Source of the DNA: a virus
IMG/VR virus record: IMGVR_UViG_3300001683_000058
Coordinates: 1-23,533 of that record
DNA length: 23,533 nucleotides
Direction: 5' to 3' (one strand)
In this document: positions 11,817 through 18,921 of the stretch, in pieces
Numbering within the stretch: position 1 is the stretch's first letter
How the letters are laid out: the number at the start of each line of letters is the position of its first letter
Notes under the pieces: generated by a model
Told to the model about the DNA's origin: nothing
Seen by the model: only the letters and a program-made list of their open reading frames with translations
The model's database searches: none
Made by a program: the position numbers and the translations under genes

Positions 11817-12659
11817 TTAATTTAGAAAAGGCTGTATTTTTTTCATATATTTTTTAGAATTTTTCTCAGCATACTTTTCTGCTTGCTTTTCGAATGGATT
11901 ATCCCAGTAGAAATCCTTACCCTTATCAACCATATTTTGTCCTGCTATAGTATAAGTTTCTTCATAGCCATCAGCACCTAATTTTTTTCTCATTAATGCA
12001 TGATCACATTCATGCAAAATAGATTCTACAAAATCTTCTATAGAATCCTGTTGTGGATTAATTGTTATTGTATCAGAAATCCACTCATAATCTGCCTTAT
12101 TGTTTGATCGATCTATTTCTACTTTAGATTTTAATCCATGCATTTTAATTATTGCCTTTGTTACATCTATCATAACACCTTTTTTCATTTTAAAACCCTC
12201 TGTAATAAATGACTCTTTATAGTCTTTAATTTTAACCGGCATATTAAATCCAAGTGCAATACCCATCATCATTCTACTATTACCTGACATTAGATACATA
12301 TCACTATTTTTATCACGTATCACTAGCGCAGGCGGTAGATTTTTACGATTAACAAAACCATCTAGCAATCGTTTCCAATCTCTCCCGTAATGTTTCATTA
12401 ACTTAATACATGCAGATAATCTTAATCCCTTAGAGCTATAACCTAATATCTCACCAATATCAGTATTTTTTATTTTTACTAATTCATTAGCAGATAATAT
12501 TTCAACTTTTGAATCCTTAATAAAAGATGTTATATCTTCTTCATTGGAAAATAATTTTGGTGCTGCTTCTAAAGTGCGGTCGTTATCAAAGTACTCATCA
12601 TGTTCTGAATCAATCTCTTCATCAGAATATTCTCTGTAATACTTGTAATTACTTAGCAC
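11817..12659 (-). CDS. ParB-like domain fused to a HExxH metallopeptidase-like domain (280 aa)
   Basis: Residues ~50-145 look like a ParB/sulfiredoxin-type domain: LPPALVIRD (109-116) followed by YLMSGNSRMMMGIALG, where the GNSRM segment (126-130) matches the G-x-x-R box. The C-terminal half contains a zinc-protease motif HECDH (216-220) in a helix, followed by NPFEKQAEKYA (254-264), whose Glu would be the third zinc ligand as in gluzincin-type peptidases. No signal peptide is visible, so it should act in the cytoplasm or in the virion and not as a typical exported lysin. The start is GTG at 12659, overlapping the preceding lysine-rich gene by 11 nt, with a weak ribosome binding site. The two-domain combination is unusual. 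The ParB call is less certain than the HExxH call. Confidence 0.65.
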   Translation of the reverse strand: MLSNYKYYREYSDEEIDSEHDEYFDNDRTLEAAPKLFSNEEDITSFIKDSKVEILSANELVKIKNTDIGEILGYSSKGLRLSACIKLMKHYGRDWKRLLDGFVNRKNLPPALVIRDKNSDMYLMSGNSRMMMGIALGFNMPVKIKDYKESFITEGFKMKKGVMIDVTKAIIKMHGLKSKVEIDRSNNKADYEWISDTITINPQQDSIEDFVESILHECDHALMRKKLGADGYEETYTIAGQNMVDKGKDFYWDNPFEKQAEKYAEKNSKKYMKKIQPFLN

Positions 12660-12840
12660 CTTTAAATTTGCTAAAGAAGCCTTTTTTCTTCTTTTTGCCT
12701 TTTTTAATCTTCTTCTTCTTACTTTTTTTCTTTTTCTTTATTTCTTCCATACCAGCTTTATCGCTATACTCCATAGCGGGTGCTGGTGTAACAGATAGAA
12801 ATATAAAAGCAGAGAGTAGTACTTTAAGTAGATTTTTCAT
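12649..12840 (-). CDS. Secreted, extremely lysine-rich small protein (63 aa)
   Basis: A clear signal peptide (MKNLLKVLLSAFIFLSVTPAPA, with likely cleavage after APA) precedes a mature peptide of about 41 aa: a short acidic start followed by a lysine block (residues ~35-55, interrupted only by S, I and G) and an aromatic end GFFSKFKGAK. The mature part is therefore a polycation exported across the inner membrane. It might bind LPS, peptidoglycan or DNA, or help disrupt the envelope. The ATG overlaps the stop of the preceding gene (TAATG), and the gene overlaps the downstream ParB-like/HExxH gene. The lysine codons form a long purine-rich strand. No known family is recognised. Confidence 0.7.
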   Translation of the reverse strand: MKNLLKVLLSAFIFLSVTPAPAMEYSDKAGMEEIKKKKKSKKKKIKKGKKKKKGFFSKFKGAK

Positions 12841-13055
12841 TATAGTATCTCCTTCATTTTCTTATCAATGGCACCTATTATGCCACTAAAATCTTTATAT
12901 GCTTTTTTAATTACCCCAGGTTTCTGTTTTTTAATACCTTGAAGTAGTCGTTTAAAATTTGTAACCATGTTGCTTCCATATATTTGTAATAATACATAAG
13001 CACGCTCGTCATCATCCATTTCGCGAAGCTTTTGTATTGCTTCAGATCTTTTCAT
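12840..13055 (-). CDS. Small helical hypothetical protein (71 aa)
   Basis: An unrecognised, probably all-alpha protein beginning MKRSEAIQKLREMDDDERAY, with a basic C-terminal helix (IKKAYKDFSGIIGAIDKKMKEIL). It joins both neighbours by TAATG overlaps (stop A is the next start A), so it is translated as part of a chain with the 218-aa protein upstream and the lysine-rich peptide downstream. It has no signal peptide, membrane segment or cysteine, and lacks the ESVNEA linker seen in its upstream neighbours. Confidence 0.65.
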   Translation of the reverse strand: MKRSEAIQKLREMDDDERAYVLLQIYGSNMVTNFKRLLQGIKKQKPGVIKKAYKDFSGIIGAIDKKMKEIL

Positions 13056-13711
13056 TATCTATCTTTATAATAATCTTCGAAATCTTTTAAGGCACTCCGC
13101 ATATCAAACTTTTGTGTTTGTGTATTGATATTCTTTTTAATTGCATAAAGAAAAGCAACACGCAAACCTGGAGCATTAAAACTGGACATCATGCGATTAA
13201 TATTATCAACAGCATTTGAAACTCCCTCAATAGTATTTCTTAATGGCTTTCTAAGTTTTTTAGCTGTCTTCATATCAGCATCAGCAACACCATCTTCCTC
13301 TTCCATTCTCAAAACGTTCCTTTTAAGCTCAGCTTTAATGCGATCCCGTATTGCAGATCTAAATTTACTTTCCTTCATTTTAATTTCCTCTGTCATGCCA
13401 ATTAAACGATATTTTTCAAGAGTGCTCACCACTTCGTCATCAGTTATTGATAAGTCTTGTGATAATGATTGAATAATCTCATAACCCCTAGCACCTGCCT
13501 TTTTAGCACGTTTTATCATGCCCTTTAGTTGTGATTTTGATAATTTGATCCCGGGCTTAGGAAGCGCTTCATCTACAGATTCATTCGCTTTTTTTATTAA
13601 TTTTGCAATTTTAAGAAGTGTTTCTTTATCTTTTTTAGAGATCATATCAAGTTGTCGATCTTTTGCAATTGTTTGTAATGCTTTTTCGTATGCTGCTGTA
13701 GATTCTAACAT
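13055..13711 (-). CDS. Modular basic protein with an ESVDEA linker (218 aa), candidate packaged internal protein
   Basis: An all-alpha, Lys-rich protein with no known domain that I can name. Residues 1-43 form a helical module ending KKANESVDEALPKPG (ESVDEA 44-49). The linker type recurs in several neighbours (ESVNEA, NESVKEVA). The remaining ~170 residues (SKSQLKGMIKRAKKAGARGY onward) form a second module, with a predicted coiled region containing many R and K. If the linker is a prohead-protease site (V-D-E|A), the protein would mature into two pieces. It lies 2 nt from the upstream gene and overlaps the next by TAATG. Confidence 0.65.
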   Translation of the reverse strand: MLESTAAYEKALQTIAKDRQLDMISKKDKETLLKIAKLIKKANESVDEALPKPGIKLSKSQLKGMIKRAKKAGARGYEIIQSLSQDLSITDDEVVSTLEKYRLIGMTEEIKMKESKFRSAIRDRIKAELKRNVLRMEEEDGVADADMKTAKKLRKPLRNTIEGVSNAVDNINRMMSSFNAPGLRVAFLYAIKKNINTQTQKFDMRSALKDFEDYYKDR

Positions 13712-13713
13712 TA

Positions 13714-14133
13714 TTATCTCACCTTCTTTAATAATTTGTCTACTGCCATAAGCAGCTTCTTTGACATTTTAGGATTCTCAAAAGCATCTTCAGATTCATT
13801 AGAATAGACAGCATCTATTAAATAATTTACATCTTGCTTTGCGTGATTTAAATGACTTATAAGAGGTGAAGCAACTTCTTTTACAGATTCATTTGCAGCT
13901 TGAAGTGCTGCTTTTACTTTAGGATCATTAGATAAACCTTTTTTAATTTTATCAATAAGCTTGACGGCTTTTGTCATATTACCAGCGTGTTTCTCAGCCA
14001 GTCCAATTGCATACTTAATCATATTTTTAGAAAAGCCTTCATTAGTTACAAAAGCTTTAGCAGGGTGATAATCAGAGATATGACCTTTTTGTTTTTTGCT
14101 ATACAAGTGTGTATAAAATTCTTTTAATATCAT
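13714..14133 (-). CDS. Modular hypothetical protein with a NESVKEVAS linker (139 aa)
   Basis: Begins MILKEFYTHLYSKKQKGHIS; the early I-L-K-E matches the L-X-E type leader of the neighbouring proteins, though the following residue is F and not A/G/S. A helical module (residues 30-80, LAEKHAGNMTKAVKLIDKIK) ends in AANESVKEVAS (79-89), the block's recurring linker, followed by a second helical module (PLISHLNHAKQDVNYLIDAVY to the C-terminus). It has no membrane segment or cysteine. The function is unknown; by context it is a member of the candidate packaged-protein set. Confidence 0.65.
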   Translation of the reverse strand: MILKEFYTHLYSKKQKGHISDYHPAKAFVTNEGFSKNMIKYAIGLAEKHAGNMTKAVKLIDKIKKGLSNDPKVKAALQAANESVKEVASPLISHLNHAKQDVNYLIDAVYSNESEDAFENPKMSKKLLMAVDKLLKKVR

Positions 14134-14137
14134 GGTG

Positions 14138-14533
14138 CTAGTCCTTGTCTTTTTTGCGATACTTAGTGCTTATTTTATTCCAAACTTTATAAATTTGATT
14201 CATATCATGAACTGTAGAATTTAATCGCATTGCAATCTTATTCATATAGACATTATATTCTTTTTTGGCAGACTCATAATTACTTCGGTCATTCCAGTCA
14301 TAGCTATCTGTTTCTCTTGGGCCGTAATCTATTATAGAACCATGTCCTTTGGCCAACTCTTTAAAACCAGCCACAAAACTTCTTTCTGTTTGATCCGGAT
14401 CTGAATGTACTTCAAATTTTACACTTGAAGCCTCATTAATTTTTTCTTTACGCGTTGGAAATGGATTATTTAATGCACCAATAGTTACCATACCACCGAT
14501 ACTTTCTTTTAACAAATCTTTTAATTTGATCAC
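14138..14533 (-). CDS. Hypothetical protein with a MIKLKDLLKES leader and an internal INEAS (131 aa); GTG start
   Basis: I place the start at GTG 14533 and not at the upstream TTG 14560. GGAG lies at 14543-14540, six nt before the GTG, and the resulting N-terminus (M)IKLKDLLKES matches those of the proteins starting at 17492 and 18550. A second motif, EKINEASS, follows near residue 35. The T4-type prohead protease cuts after L/I-X-E, so LKE|S and INE|A are both plausible sites, the second releasing a mature domain (SVKFEVHSDPDQTERSFVAG onward). That mature domain is mixed alpha/beta, with no recognised family. It begins just after the stop of the 190-aa gene. Confidence 0.7.
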   Translation of the reverse strand: MIKLKDLLKESIGGMVTIGALNNPFPTRKEKINEASSVKFEVHSDPDQTERSFVAGFKELAKGHGSIIDYGPRETDSYDWNDRSNYESAKKEYNVYMNKIAMRLNSTVHDMNQIYKVWNKISTKYRKKDKD

Positions 14534-14535
14534 AT

Positions 14536-15108
14536 CTAACTCCAGTGTCTCATAATCCAATCATGAACTTCTTTTGCTTCCTTATCAGACAATGCTCTAA
14601 ACACTTCTTCCAATACTTTTTTCTCAGATCCAAGCTGATCAATAAGATCATCCATCCAACCTAGCCTTTTATTTGCGCCTTCTTTTATAGTTCCTTCTAT
14701 GGCTTGACCAGATTTTATTTTATTTACCATTGATACTATTTTTCCTGGTTCAATATCTAATGCATCTATTATACCGGCTAAAACTGCCATTTTTCTTTTA
14801 CGATTTAGGCCTGTTTGCTCTAAGGCATCGACAAACTTTTCCATAAATCTCTTTACATTTCCAGGTAACGAAGTTCCACCTTCATTTACGGATTCGGATT
14901 TCCATCCTTTTTTATCTGCCATTCTTTGCAGCTTAATCCAAGAATCACGAAACTGACCTTTCATTTTACTCCATTGGGTTGGATCGGTTTTCTCTATGTA
15001 TTTAAAAAATCTCCACACACCTTCCCAATTAGGTTCTACATTAATAGTTCTAGCTTCATTTAGCTTCTTTATGATAATGTGTTTTGCTCTTTTAAAAGTA
15101 TTATTCAC
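14536..15108 (-). CDS. Three-module protein with LNEA, ESVNEG and IKEG junctions (190 aa)
   Basis: Start GTG 15108 with a weak GAG-type ribosome binding site. After a basic leader ending KKLNEAR (16-20), there are three apparent modules. Residues 22-70 are Trp-rich (NWEGVWRFFKYIE...WSKMKGQFRDSW). Then ESVNEG (72-77) leads to a helical module with LPGNVKRFMEKFVDALEQTG and ALDIEPGKIVSMVNKIK. Then IKEG (141-144) leads to LGWMDDLIDQLGSEKKVLEE...WIMRHWS. The DNA at the ESVNEG junction (14880-14895) is identical over 16 nt to the two ESVNEA junctions of the 341-aa protein. This is a strong candidate polyprotein or modular capsid-packaged protein; function unknown. Confidence 0.7.
   Translation of the reverse strand: MNNTFKRAKHIIIKKLNEARTINVEPNWEGVWRFFKYIEKTDPTQWSKMKGQFRDSWIKLQRMADKKGWKSESVNEGGTSLPGNVKRFMEKFVDALEQTGLNRKRKMAVLAGIIDALDIEPGKIVSMVNKIKSGQAIEGTIKEGANKRLGWMDDLIDQLGSEKKVLEEVFRALSDKEAKEVHDWIMRHWS
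14880..14895. repeat. 16-nt linker repeat, copy C, in a different gene
   Basis: Coding-strand GAATCCGTAAATGAAG at the ESVNEG junction of the 190-aa protein, identical to the core of the two copies in the 341-aa gene about 1.7-1.9 kb away. Confidence 0.9.
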
Positions 15109-15121
15109 TATATAATCTCAA

Positions 15122-15394
15122 TTAAGTTACGTTTAACTTTTGAATTTCTTCTTTAGCTATACCCTTAATAATGCCTCTAAGCTTATTGAGTTTTGACTCC
15201 TTAGCATCATCACCTTTATAATTCTTTTCTATATAATTAAAAAATTCTTTTTTCTTATCAGTGTCAAGTTCAGCAGGAGACTTTGCATCAAACTTAGCTA
15301 ATGCGTCTTTAAAGAATTTTTGATATTCCTCTGCACCACCCTCTGCGATGTTAGTAACAATATGCTTTATGATTGCTTCGTTATAATAGGACAT
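15122..15394 (-). CDS. Small phage hypothetical protein with an IAEGG leader (90 aa)
   Basis: Good ribosome binding site (GGAG, 8 nt before ATG 15394) and a preceding ATATTTAT box, so this gene probably begins a transcription unit. The N-terminus MSYYNEAIIKHIVTNIAEGG carries I-A-E|G at residues 16-19, another potential prohead-protease site. The rest, AEEYQKFFKDALAKFDAKSP-AELDTDKKKEFFNYIEK, is a compact helical module of a kind I associate with small marine-phage proteins (FF--L-K---KSPAEL---KK-FF). No catalytic residues are seen. Confidence 0.7.
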   Translation of the reverse strand: MSYYNEAIIKHIVTNIAEGGAEEYQKFFKDALAKFDAKSPAELDTDKKKEFFNYIEKNYKGDDAKESKLNKLRGIIKGIAKEEIQKLNVT

Positions 15395-15414
15395 ACTATA
15401 ATCTCCATTTTCTT

Positions 15415-15422
15415 ATAAATAT
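15415..15422 (-). promoter_or_regulatory. ATATTTAT box upstream of the 90-aa gene
   Basis: Sense-strand ATATTTAT lies 20 nt upstream of ATG 15394, in the only real gap (15395-15443) of this long gene block. It recurs at similar distances before other genes and is a candidate promoter -10-like element. Confidence 0.4.
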
Positions 15423-15443
15423 CACGACATTAAAAATATATGC

Positions 15444-15770
15444 TTAATCATCAGCGTGTTCTAACAATTTCGTATCATCTTCTGCATTATTGAACCAAAA
15501 ATCAATTACCTTAGCAAATGAACCAACAAATCCACCTAACATCAATAATAAAATTTCTTTCCAGCCACCCTGTACATCAACTCCATTACTCATAAAATAA
15601 ATCATAAGTGCAAGAATAACAGCAAATAAAGCGACAACAACAATACTGATGTACCACTTTCTTGACTGTCTAAACTTAATAATCCCAAGCAAATCTAAAT
15701 TAATTTCGTGCTTCCTATCCTCAGTTGAGGCTCCCTCTTTTATTTTTGATACTGTTTTTTCTATAGCCAT
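15444..15770 (-). CDS. Two-TM holin-like membrane protein (108 aa)
   Basis: A cytoplasmic N-terminus (with IKEG at 10-13), a first transmembrane helix at about 39-61 (WYISIVVVALFAVILALMIYF), a short loop with VDVQGGW, a second helix at about 70-92 (EILLLMLGGFVGSFAKVID) and an acidic C-tail. Size and layout fit a phage holin or small envelope protein; the family is not certain. It overlaps the upstream 92-aa gene by one nt (TAATG). A separate 3TM-family-like holin is encoded at 17489-17914, so this could be an antiholin or a second pore protein. Confidence 0.6.
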   Translation of the reverse strand: MAIEKTVSKIKEGASTEDRKHEINLDLLGIIKFRQSRKWYISIVVVALFAVILALMIYFMSNGVDVQGGWKEILLLMLGGFVGSFAKVIDFWFNNAEDDTKLLEHADD

Positions 15771-16048
15771 TATTTGTCTCCTACGTAATCACTATCATAC
15801 ACATAACCAAACCAACCACCATAACTTCTATCAACATCACGAGTTAAATCTTCCCAATCCTTAAACGTATTATAGAGTGATGGCTCACTTGAGCTTGGAT
15901 CATGTGTTTTCTTAAACATTACATTTAATTTTTTCATCCTCTTGACAACATCATCGGCCATCGCTTCCATTTTTTTGACATCACTTTTTTTCGCAATACC
16001 CTCTGACAATGACTTGATATTTCCTGATAAAAAGGTTTTTAATTTCAT
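15770..16048 (-). CDS. Small hypothetical protein with an MKLKTFL...LSEG leader (92 aa)
   Basis: Starts MKLKTFLSGNIKSLSEGIAKK; the leader is similar to the MIKLKD leaders of nearby genes and contains L-S-E|G (14-17), which fits a prohead-protease site. The rest is a helical, basic segment (VKKMEAMADDVVKRMKKLNV) followed by an aromatic C-terminus (WEDLTRDVDRSYGGWFGYVY). It overlaps the 341-aa gene by 4 nt (ATGA) upstream and the membrane protein by 1 nt downstream. The function is unknown. Confidence 0.65.
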   Translation of the reverse strand: MKLKTFLSGNIKSLSEGIAKKSDVKKMEAMADDVVKRMKKLNVMFKKTHDPSSSEPSLYNTFKDWEDLTRDVDRSYGGWFGYVYDSDYVGDK

Positions 16049-17070
16049 TTCAATTCTCTCTCAGCATACGGAATTGCGTTAGGTTGCCAGACATAATCTT
16101 TACCATCCTTCCAGCCAATCATCTCTCCGGACATACCATTAATAATATCGTATTTTGGTGTCTTTCCAGCTAATATCTCTTTCATACTTTTTGCAATAGC
16201 ATCTTTAAGTTCTTTCTTTGTTTCAGCATGGACTTCATTACCGCGCTCTATTTTTTCATTAACAAATACTGATTCGTTTGCTTGAAATACTTTTTCAAAA
16301 TCGTTAAAGCTACGAATCTTTTTCTTATATAATTTTATTTCACCGCTAGTGGTATCATAATGAATTGCGGCATCTTGATGTTCAATGTCCAACACAAGAG
16401 TATTGTAATTCTTTCCAATTGCAACCCCACCAGAAATTTCATGGCCTGTAAGCTTTTTTACCCACTTACCAATCATCTTAACATCCTTACTAGGTTTTGA
16501 TCCTCGATCCATAACCCATTTTTGAATATTACTAGGCAAGCTAGCTTCATTTACGGATTCTTCTGTAACAAGACTAATCATTTTTTTAATTGGAAGTTTT
16601 TCAAGTTTCTTTCGATTAGATACACTTGAATTTCCATAGTCTAAAATTGCTCTAGCAGTTTGAGGATTTATTTTTACTCCATCCATATTTTTAGCTCCTG
16701 ACCTTGAAACACTTATTAAAAATGTTTTCAATTGTCCCCAAGAAATAGCTTCATTTACGGATTCTGCCCACGGAGCATTTCTAATTATTGCTTTCATCCA
16801 CTCTATTATCTTACTTTGTTTATCAAGTCGCCCAATATTCACAGATTTATTGCCAGCGTGATAAAATACACTGCCATACTTGTCAACACTCATTGAGAGC
16901 GTTGCATTTTTAGTTTTAAATTCTCCGGACCAAATTTCATTATGACCTTTTTTAGTAGCCTTGAAACTCTTTACTCGTAAGCCAGCTTTTTTCCACATCT
17001 GCATAAGCCCAGCATTAATTTTTAAATCCTGATTTGGAGTTAATTCTTTGGCTTCTTTTGTATTATTCAT
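16045..17070 (-). CDS. Four-module protein separated by ESVNEA linkers (341 aa), candidate packaged polyprotein
   Basis: The largest member of the block. Module 1 (1-102) is a mixed alpha/beta domain (WKKAGLRVKSFKATKKGHNE, IWSGEFKTKNATLSMSVDKYG). ESVNEA (103-108) leads to module 2 (109-170; ISWGQLKTFLISVSRSG...PQTARAILDYGNSS). ESVNEA (171-176) leads to module 3 (177-263; LPSNIQKWVMDRG, then NYNTLVLDIEHQDAAIHYDT). ANESVFVNE (264-272) leads to module 4 (273-341; AETKKELKDAIAKSMKEILA, then MIGWKDGKDYVWQP). The two ESVNEA linkers share 20 identical nt. No module matches a family I can name. If V-N-E|A is cut by a T4-type prohead protease, four small proteins would result. It is joined to both neighbours by ATGA overlaps. 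Confidence 0.7.
   Translation of the reverse strand: MNNTKEAKELTPNQDLKINAGLMQMWKKAGLRVKSFKATKKGHNEIWSGEFKTKNATLSMSVDKYGSVFYHAGNKSVNIGRLDKQSKIIEWMKAIIRNAPWAESVNEAISWGQLKTFLISVSRSGAKNMDGVKINPQTARAILDYGNSSVSNRKKLEKLPIKKMISLVTEESVNEASLPSNIQKWVMDRGSKPSKDVKMIGKWVKKLTGHEISGGVAIGKNYNTLVLDIEHQDAAIHYDTTSGEIKLYKKKIRSFNDFEKVFQANESVFVNEKIERGNEVHAETKKELKDAIAKSMKEILAGKTPKYDIINGMSGEMIGWKDGKDYVWQPNAIPYAERELK
16542..16561. repeat. 20-nt linker repeat, copy A
   Basis: Identical to 16746-16765 (204 nt apart) and sharing 16 nt with 14880-14895. It encodes the ESVNEA junction of module 2/3 of the 341-aa protein. The core is GAATCCGTAAATGAAG on the coding strand. Confidence 0.9.
16746..16765. repeat. 20-nt linker repeat, copy B
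   Basis: Second identical copy of the linker DNA, at the module 1/2 junction of the 341-aa protein. Synonymous positions are also identical to copy A, so this is DNA-level identity and not only peptide conservation. Confidence 0.9.
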
Positions 17071-17492
17071 TTTAATTTTATGCCTGCTTTTTTAAGATGT
17101 GAGTGTATTCCTAACATCCAACTTCTAAATACAGCATCCATATCGGCTTTGCCATCATACTTATTCATAATTTTGAATATATCATTATTAACTTTATTTA
17201 AAGCCCTAAACATATCATTGTCAGGACTCTCTTCTATTGTTTCATCTAAAGCTGCATTACTCTGGTGCCCTTTATTCCAGCTACTCATTAATCCTATAAA
17301 CGGAATAACTTGTTTTTTAAAATTCTTTAAAATTATTTTTTCATCTACTTTTTCACCGCTTATCTCAGTAGCAGACTTAGCTACATCCATCGTTGCATTT
17401 GCAAACTTTTTATACTCACCATAAAACTTCTCGTAAGCTTCGCTATAATCTCTTTTTTTACCTTCTTTCATTATATCTTTTAATTTTATCAT
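17067..17492 (-). CDS. Hypothetical protein with a MIKLKDIMKEG leader (141 aa)
   Basis: The N-terminus MIKLKDIMKEGKKRDYSEAY carries I-M-K-E|G, matching the capsid-targeting-like leader of sister genes. The body is helical (YGEYKKFANATMDVAKSATE; VIPFIGLMSSWNKGHQSNAA; FRALNKVNNDIFKIMNKYDG; FRSWMLGIHSHLKKAGIKLK) with no cysteines and no recognised fold; a four-helix bundle is plausible. It is joined by ATGA overlaps to the holin-like gene upstream and the 341-aa gene downstream. By context it is a candidate injected or internal head protein. Confidence 0.65.
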   Translation of the reverse strand: MIKLKDIMKEGKKRDYSEAYEKFYGEYKKFANATMDVAKSATEISGEKVDEKIILKNFKKQVIPFIGLMSSWNKGHQSNAALDETIEESPDNDMFRALNKVNNDIFKIMNKYDGKADMDAVFRSWMLGIHSHLKKAGIKLK

Positions 17493-17914
17493 CTCGCTAC
17501 CTGTTTTACTTTTTCAATTGAACGACCAGCAAAATAAGCTGCATATACAGTCATTAATAAAGTTTGATATACAGGTACATATGCTGCACCTATTGTGAAA
17601 GCTTCCCCACCTATTTGTAGGTTACCATCAAAAATACTTAATACAGTAAACACAGCAGTCAAGAAAATTAATGTTAGCGGCCTGATATTTTTACTCAGCC
17701 AACTTCCGTGTTTCATATCAGCTTCCCATCTTGCAGATACTTGAGCTTGAGCAGCTTGTTCTGCTTCAGCTAATATTTTTGTAATTCTTTCTTTAGCTTC
17801 TGCTTTTTCTTCACCTGAAGTATGTAAATTATCAATAATTCCACCCACGTCTTTTAAAGTATCTCCTCCCAATAAACTTCCGGCAGCGCTAGTTAATGTA
17901 CTTAGTAATCCCAT
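17489..17914 (-). CDS. Holin of the 3TM / GTA-holin-like type (141 aa)
   Basis: A cytoplasmic amphipathic N-terminal half (LGGDTLKDVGGIIDNLHTSGEEKAEAKERITKI) is followed by SWLSKNIRPLTLIFLTAVF, a phrase typical of GTA_holin_3TM proteins, then hydrophobic helices at about 77-95 and 107-130 and a short basic tail (IEKVKQVAR). Such holins form the inner-membrane lesion that starts lysis. A strong AGGAG lies before ATG 17914. No endolysin gene is recognisable in the window, so the partner lies elsewhere or is unrecognised. It is followed by ATGA coupling to the next gene. Confidence 0.75.
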   Translation of the reverse strand: MGLLSTLTSAAGSLLGGDTLKDVGGIIDNLHTSGEEKAEAKERITKILAEAEQAAQAQVSARWEADMKHGSWLSKNIRPLTLIFLTAVFTVLSIFDGNLQIGGEAFTIGAAYVPVYQTLLMTVYAAYFAGRSIEKVKQVAR

Positions 17915-17925
17915 AACTTATCTCC

Positions 17926-18261
17926 TTAATACTCAAAACCAAAGGGTTCAGAATTGCTTCCACCCTTTATTGCATACCACACATCTTTAATTCTGTAGTA
18001 CCAAAATTTATCTGTTTCTAAAATCCAAAACTCACCCTTGGGTGTATTGAACGATTTATTGGGTCCAAATTTAACTGTCATTGGTGCACCATCATCCCAC
18101 ATCTTTTTAGTTATTTGTCCCTTGACATTTGAACCATCACCTGTAGCTTTATAAATACGTGACCCAGGATAATCTCCTTTCAAGCTTTCTAACCCTTCTG
18201 GCACGCCCTCTTTTAATACTGACTCAGCTAGCATGCCTATATTATCTCTTAGCTTAATCAT
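17926..18261 (-). CDS. Hypothetical protein with MIKLRD leader and LAES/LKEG motifs (111 aa)
   Basis: The leader MIKLRDNIGMLAESVLKEGV contains two L-X-E sites (LAE|S at 11-14, LKE|G at 16-19). The rest is a compact beta-rich domain (GSRIYKATGDGSNVKGQITK; PMTVKFGPNKSFNTPKGEFW; YYRIKDVWYAIKGG) with many aromatic residues. No known family is recognised. It starts one nt after the stop of the 95-aa gene. By leader and context it is a candidate capsid-packaged protein. Confidence 0.65.
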   Translation of the reverse strand: MIKLRDNIGMLAESVLKEGVPEGLESLKGDYPGSRIYKATGDGSNVKGQITKKMWDDGAPMTVKFGPNKSFNTPKGEFWILETDKFWYYRIKDVWYAIKGGSNSEPFGFEY

Positions 18262-18262
18262 C

Positions 18263-18550
18263 TTATTTAGGATTCTGCACGGGGTCTGGATAGAATCTAT
18301 CCAATTCGTCCCACCATTCTTTAAAAGCTTTTAGTGCGTTCCTATCACCGTGTTGTTTAATTGCCATGTGTGCCCCTTGTAGTGCATCATGTAACTTATC
18401 ATAAGCCTTATCTAAGTCTGAGGCTTCGTTTATTTCACCTTCTTTTAATTTTTTATAATCATTAAGGGTTGGCAATTTATCACCAAACTTTCTATTTCCC
18501 CAATATTTTGTAGTGAATGATTCTTTAAGTAAATCTTTCAATTTTATCAT
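18263..18550 (-). CDS. Hypothetical protein with a MIKLKDLLKES leader and internal INEAS (95 aa)
   Basis: The leader MIKLKDLLKES is the same as in the gene starting at 14533. A second leader-like stretch, YKKLKEGEINEASD (32-45), follows, containing LKE|G and INE|A. The last 50 residues (DLDKAYDKLHDALQGAHMAI...FKEWWDELDRFYPDP) form a probable helical hairpin. Two stacked candidate protease sites suggest a pro-region of about 43 residues removed on maturation. TAATG overlap with the upstream secreted thioredoxin-like gene. Confidence 0.65.
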   Translation of the reverse strand: MIKLKDLLKESFTTKYWGNRKFGDKLPTLNDYKKLKEGEINEASDLDKAYDKLHDALQGAHMAIKQHGDRNALKAFKEWWDELDRFYPDPVQNPK

Positions 18551-18921
18551 TAGAATACGTCTCCTGCTATACCTGCATCAATTGCTTTTTTAATATCTTT
18601 TGGTGTTATATCGATTATGCCGTCCATATCTGCTTTCCAAGTATCTGCCTTGTCACCGTTAATAAATAACGCAATAGAAGGAAAATTTCTCAATCTTAAT
18701 TTTTTACAAATCTTTTTAGTATTTTCAGACATAGCTTTTATTATAATTGCCTCTTCATGACCGGAAATACCTTCAACATACTCCATGCCATCGCTTTCTG
18801 CCCATTTAGATGTAAATACAACTATAACCACACCATCACTAATTTTTTCTTTAAAACTCTTATCATTAACCTGCCCAAATAAGACACCTAACAATAATAG
18901 AGACAAAATTATCTTTTTCAT
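18550..18921 (-). CDS. Secreted thioredoxin-fold protein lacking the CxxC (123 aa)
   Basis: A signal peptide MKKIILSLLLLGVLFGQ is followed by a thioredoxin-like domain: strand VVIVVFTSKWAESDG (31-45) sits where FWA-WCxxC is normal, and RNFPSIALFINGD (78-90) supplies the cis-proline (P81) and following strand. The active-site cysteines are replaced (W40 A41 E42 S43 D44); the only cysteine of the mature protein is C72. It therefore cannot act as a dithiol oxidoreductase and is more likely a binding or decoy protein in the periplasm. AGGAG before ATG 18921. Part of the run with the MshEN-like membrane protein upstream. Confidence 0.7.
   Translation of the reverse strand: MKKIILSLLLLGVLFGQVNDKSFKEKISDGVVIVVFTSKWAESDGMEYVEGISGHEEAIIIKAMSENTKKICKKLRLRNFPSIALFINGDKADTWKADMDGIIDITPKDIKKAIDAGIAGDVF

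Follow-up and report, generated by a model that had tools for sequence, protein, structure and literature searches.

To our knowledge, few injected phage anti-restriction proteins have been described; the internal proteins of phage T4 belong to these few, and knowledge of them derives from enterobacterial phages. In T4, a capsid-targeting sequence (CTS), cleavage at L/I-X-E, injection and anti-restriction activity have been described for these proteins (PMC9026906, PMC12373910, PMC3012670), of which Ip1-3 block GmrSD enzymes and have only their leader in common (PMC12373910). We analyzed a comparable island of genes, all located on the minus strand at 13055-18550, in a window of 23,533 nucleotides (bases 1-23533 of the 46,632-base IMG/VR record IMGVR_UViG_3300001683_000058), which belongs to an incomplete fragment of an uncultured marine T4-like myovirus. 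A preliminary description had read these genes as a modular set of packaged and injected proteins with CTS-like leaders and prohead-protease-like junctions. The underlying observation was confirmed as real and non-random, while the reading as a whole was partly supported: the island probably encodes capsid-targeted cargo of a T4-like phage, in the form of precursors of small, mostly basic modules, which a gp21-type protease would cut and which would be packaged as the T4 internal proteins are.

Four island proteins begin with MIKL(K/R)D as described (starts 18550, 18261, 17492 and 14533) and lead into LLKE/S (18550 and 14533), IMKE/G (17492) or LAE/S and LKE/G (18261), with the slash marking the predicted cut. 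A position weight matrix (PWM) of the leader was trained solely on those capsid and scaffold N-termini of relatives that have the site, with the island excluded from training, and was used to score every open reading frame (ORF) of the same contig, the relative G001, three relatives of 169-181 kb and Microcystis phage Mel-JY01. The scores of MIKLKDLLKE/S (p=2e-5) and MIKLKDIMKE/G (p=3e-4) lay in the range of real head proteins, and by this measure the island leader is equivalent to that of other prohead proteins in the phage group. In many relatives the capsid protein starts with MDLKNILNE/GSSH, MNTNSLLNE/SAGF or MSDIKSLLTE/TTNP and the scaffold with MAKSDLLKE/AIADA; one subgroup of capsid proteins begins MNINSLLPHD, without the Glu. 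The tests on relatives used 80 loci with Mel-JY01-like capsid genes. With capsid and scaffold proteins set aside, the capsid loci contained 13 leader ORFs (0.3 expected), several of them adjoining the protease gene, compared with 0/764 in baseplate loci. The short leader ending in an [LI]xE-type site is common to mature parts that are mutually unrelated (BLAST, no paralogy). The claim of CTS-like leaders is thus well supported by their match to relatives' capsid and scaffold N-termini and their confinement to head gene clusters.

Expectations for the cleavage motif were taken from 2000 composition-preserving shuffles. The motif [LIV][NKDST]E[AGS] occurred 14 times in the island with 1.8 expected (0/2000 shuffles) and ESV[NKD]E five times with 0.01 expected, compared with nine occurrences of the former, 10.5 expected, in the remaining 11,489 residues tested on the contig. 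In the 80 relatives' loci the enrichment, 3.7-fold, was confined to ORFs that lie upstream of the capsid gene (221 vs 60 expected); the remaining ORFs of these loci (125 vs 112) and the baseplate loci (260 vs 247) were close to expectation. As a control, [LI].E[AGS] was counted in T4, where known gp21 substrates contained 20 (5.6 expected) and other T4 proteins 19 (15.4 expected); because the substrates stand apart in this way, motif density marks real substrates. The capsid maturation site of the clade is QLV[KST]E/A or close to it, and many clade proteases carry INE/S near their start and VNE/S or VNE/G near their end. Since capsid sites and the protease's own sites are similar to them, SVNE/A and INE/A of the island fit the specificity of the clade. 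The proposed processing sites are therefore well founded, with enrichment restricted to island and head ORFs and a background level in the non-head proteins checked, namely the rest of the contig, the other ORFs and the baseplate loci.

The remaining motifs of the preliminary description were also found where it had placed them, including SLSE/G, KIKE/G, NIAE/G and KLNE/A near N-termini, the ESVNE/A (twice), ESVNE/G, ESVDE/A and ESVKE/V internal junctions, and INE/AS junctions in 14138-14533 and 18263-18550. The genes and modules of the island are as follows.

18263..18550, minus strand: leader protein, 95 amino acids, MIKLKDLLKE/S followed by KLKE/G and INE/A sites (leader PWM p=2e-5)
17926..18261, minus strand: leader protein, 111 amino acids, MIKLRDNIGMLAE/SVLKE/G followed by a single module
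17489..17914, minus strand: holin (phrog_3427, E=6e-27), N-terminal leader absent
17067..17492, minus strand: leader protein, 141 amino acids, MIKLKDIMKE/G (leader PWM p=3e-4)
16045..17070, minus strand: four-module precursor, 341 amino acids, junctions ESVNE/A, ESVNE/A and ESVFVNE/K, without its own N-terminal leader
16265..16543, minus strand: third module of the 16045-17070 protein, an exact cassette replacement in the near-identical L003
15770..16048, minus strand: leader-type protein, 92 amino acids, MKLKTFLSGNIKSLSE/G (SLSE/G)
15444..15770, minus strand: small membrane protein with an N-terminal KIKE/G motif
15122..15394, minus strand: NIAE/G, then a phrog_28651-like module
14536..15108, minus strand: three-module precursor, 190 amino acids, sites KLNE/A, ESVNE/G and TIKE/G
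14138..14533, minus strand: leader protein with a GTG start, MIKLKDLLKE/S...KINE/A
13714..14133, minus strand: protein of 139 amino acids with an ESVKE/V junction
13055..13711, minus strand: protein of 218 amino acids with junctions ESVDE/A and KMKE/S

Comparison with related genomes pointed to exchange at these sites. L003 is nearly identical to the window over 12.7-19.6 kb of the DNA alignment apart from two replaced segments, with identity lower (83-97%) from about 16.26 to 15.6 kb. The first segment extends from ESVNEA (16560-16543) to ES..VNE (16274-16254), while the second begins exactly after the last leader Glu codon of MIKLKDLLKE (14504) and stops at the gene end, so that in 14138-14533 the leader is kept and the mature part exchanged. 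All in-gene breakpoints between the window and L003 (3/3) fall on predicted cleavage sites. The pattern recurs in more distant relatives: in L005 a different middle module lies between ESVNE sites, and in L004 modules of the window proteins are re-joined in other orders. Breaks in the head operons of relatives occur directly after MRDNVNE, MKLKDILKE or MKLTDLLNE, and LSEGVNE. At the DNA level with duplicates removed, 28 of 45 head-operon breakpoints lay no more than three codons from [LIVM]xE (7.7 expected), a set that is partly non-independent because related genomes have some breakpoints in common; for other proteins, capsid proteins included, the count was 1/39.

Individual island proteins showed the same reuse. 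The N-terminal part of the 18263-18550 protein is joined in L004, after LNE/G, to a module present elsewhere in the window, and L004 also encodes a homologue of 17926-18261 (L004:4827-5138, leader MKLKDFLNE), every module of 14536-15108 in a different context, and the ALPxP.. module of 13055-13711 at SINE/A (L004:8562-9770). A segment of 13714-14133 is common to the middle module of L005:9980-10669, and in G032 a multi-site protein of 713 amino acids, located between protease and scaffold, contains a homologue of the 15122-15394 module. Homologues of 17067-17492 (L013, MIKLKELLKE) and 15770-16048 (MIKLKDILTE in L013, MIKLKDILKE in L014) are found near terminase and portal genes. The GTG start at 14533 is ATG at the same place in L003, with GGAG just upstream in both.

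The most serious alternative, though we regard it as unlikely, is that the multi-site proteins act, as T4 gp22, gp67 and gp68 do, as disposable components of the prohead core: they would help to build it, be chopped and leave the head in pieces, uninjected. In T4, core proteins likewise undergo cleavage at numerous sites and for the most part are removed (PMC9026906), there are many sites per island protein, and multi-site proteins sit in the head operon of relatives. The predicted pieces, on the other hand, are conserved modules of ~40-110 amino acids (~4-12 kDa) that are reused in different architectures, and they are mostly basic, most with an isoelectric point of 8-10 and a few acidic, as in the T4 internal proteins. 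They are replaced by unrelated ones while the leader is kept and are variable, which differs from a conserved acidic, gp22-like scaffold, and no match was obtained between island modules and the scaffolds of the reference relatives. In one relative, moreover, the neighbour of a leader gene looks enzymatic (AAA/zeta-toxin-like and cytidylyltransferase).

It is improbable that the ESVNE repeats are merely DNA-level recombination joints between domains, unrelated to proteolysis. The ESVNEA copies in the window have GAATCCGTAAATGAAGC in common almost exactly and breaks fall on them, so that short homology may drive exchange. Against a role confined to DNA, capsid maturation sites and the protease contain a protein motif of this kind written in other codons, only the head-core proteins of relatives are enriched in it, and single-module leader proteins also have the site; recombination and cleavage roles can hold together. 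Still less probable is that the leaders serve as amphipathic helices for membrane binding or lysis, in an unpackaged late lysis/host-takeover cluster. This would account for the holin and small membrane protein inside the island and for the lysozyme-like gene close to leader genes in L013 and L014, but capsid and scaffold proteins bear the same kind of leader, which terminates in the protease motif and in relatives is limited to head gene clusters, and a purely lysis-related role was rejected. Chance similarity or simple gene duplication, suggested by short motifs, an AT-rich genome and several MIKLKD starts, was rejected as extremely unlikely given the shuffles, the background ORFs, the T4 control and the lack of paralogy between mature parts.

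Several observations nevertheless weigh against cargo as the explanation. Three island genes (16045-17070, 13055-13711 and 13714-14133) have no clear MIKLKD start, and the island also includes a holin and a membrane protein. Because the block encodes these two (17489-17914 and 15444-15770), its genes are not all cargo. The holin serves as an internal negative control within the island. A breakpoint test based on BLAST ends was weakly significant (17/29 vs 10.5 expected); since alignment ends are fuzzy, the DNA-level test took its place. A single-sequence model of 16045-17070 had coil at all three junctions, with a predicted local distance difference test score (pLDDT) of 49, weak overall, and the structure models are of low confidence. 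No island module resembled a known anti-defence protein in Pfam and PHROG searches. Finally, the gp21-like protease expected in the same genome is accounted for only through relatives, where its gene lies near the capsid gene. Neither capsid nor protease gene was found on the 46.6-kb fragment or on five contigs with 16045-17070 homologues, all of which are incomplete, and for this reason the absence from the fragment is not decisive. The remainder of the record carries T4-like baseplate genes (L001, L002), and the gp6-like protein of this contig matches Mel-JY01 (46%) and Flavobacterium phage immuto (37%); a relative is encoded by at least 600 stretches in IMG/VR. With E values of 2e-54 in Mel-JY01 and 1e-51 in G032, the clade protease is a head maturation protease of the phrog_207 family; the capsid protein of G032 belongs to phrog_138.

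In the cargo explanation, the ~10-residue amphipathic leader (MIKLKDLLKE), which its sequence identifies as kin to clade capsid and scaffold N-termini, would bring precursors into the prohead core. A gp21-type protease would then cut after [LIVM]xE, as the motif and its placement indicate, removing the leader and freeing the modules at ESVNE-type linkers. By analogy with T4 internal proteins, the modules may remain in the head with the DNA and be injected. Because each is bounded by cleavage sites, modules could be exchanged as cassettes, and genome comparison indicates that they are swapped between phages with breakpoints at the sites; a likely use would be fast turnover of host-takeover or anti-defence proteins. 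We lean towards a combinatorial cargo, in which marine T4-like phages would assemble packaged polyproteins from interchangeable modules and protease sites would be both release points in the capsid and swap joints between phages. As sites would act in both ways, new cargo could be added with packaging left intact.

Pfam, PHROG and PDB sequence searches assigned no island module to a confident family of known function, with no island protein above the Pfam cut-off, which bears out the earlier impression of mature domains without a recognisable family. Foldseek with the single-sequence model of the 341-residue protein gave no match at E<=0.001 and was ignored, and the AlphaFold model of 14536-15108 (pLDDT 41) was not used. 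A PF03420 search of the same contig gave no match, nor did its controls, and on the strand of the genes the late-promoter TATAAATA did not clearly exceed its expected frequency. Since no module has a confident known family, function is read from T4, and injection with an effector or anti-defence role is suggested by that system and by some enzyme-like cargo candidates in relatives.

Further observations concern neighbouring genes and relatives. Directly downstream of the island, gene 12840-13055 has no motif, and 12649-12840 (minus strand) encodes 63 amino acids with an apparent signal peptide and a lysine-rich tail. Next to the island, the protein of 11817-12659 (minus strand; 280 amino acids) combines a zincin-like HECDH motif with a GNSR stretch that is ParB-like; it matches Pfam MPTase-PolyVal at only E=0.027 and resembles the DdrB-type packaged protein of phage P1. 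Directly upstream of the island, 18550-18921 (minus strand) encodes a thioredoxin-like protein that has an apparent signal peptide, its Pfam Thioredoxin match (E=4e-4) falling short of the cut-off. L014:4142-9412 encodes 1756 amino acids with AAA_33/zeta-toxin-like and cytidylyltransferase-like domains and adjoins a MIKLKDILKE gene. In L124:3182-11963 a run of leader proteins flanks the capsid gene on both sides; MKLSQLKQLIREE and MIKLK are among their starts, and the run includes one HAD-like domain. LKQLIREEI, a leader of a second type, may represent a further CTS. Three genes of the cultured cyanophage Mel-JY01 (60276-62718; L010:20275-22717) have the leader MIKLKSLLQE, MIKLKSLLKE or MIKLMSLVTE, each followed by ISDRVWH, apparently a small cargo family. 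Three proteins of phage immuto (record positions 103806-118931, L209), which is cultured and testable, have a common leader like FDLKKFLVENKLTxNSxLL.

With the leader and site profile, many candidates for injected proteins can be listed directly among abundant relatives (at least 600 IMG/VR matches). Cassette exchange at protease sites would explain quick renewal of injected proteins in such phages, and what marine phages inject, and against what, becomes a directly testable question.

Compared with known systems, the island most resembles T4 IPI, IPII, IPIII and Alt in its ~10-residue leader ending in hydrophobic-x-Glu, which in T4 is cut by gp21 (PMC9026906, PMC3012670, PMC12373910), and T4 internal proteins likewise have unrelated small basic mature parts behind a common leader and are polymorphic between phages. 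The island proteins had no sequence-family match to them. In contrast to T4, capsid and scaffold proteins of the relatives bear the same kind of leader, and several island precursors hold 2-4 modules with internal sites at which they are swapped. Polyvalent proteins (Iyer et al. 2017, PMC5512222) are also multi-domain and lie near late genes, and packaging, injection and cleavage into units have been proposed for them, but they have recognisable enzymatic domains and zincin peptidases of their own proposed to process them, whereas the island has small unassigned modules, with no enzymatic domains in one polypeptide above the Pfam cut-off, and a head maturation protease is expected. In the parts of PMC5694885 consulted, phiKZ and SPN3US have head proteins cut by a gp21-related protease, some of them ejected, and identical N-termini on the diverged gp53 and gp54; their propeptides are mostly >100 residues, and cassette exchange at internal sites is not described there. 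In the limited literature searched, we found no description of multi-module precursors with exchange at protease sites and no paper printing the leader sequence. Apart from the protease gene, the testable features of the T4 CTS cargo system were found in the island, which by analogy would work in the same way, with packaging and injection predicted. The CTS cargo scheme is already known from T4; the new part is the multi-module precursors and their exchange at protease sites.

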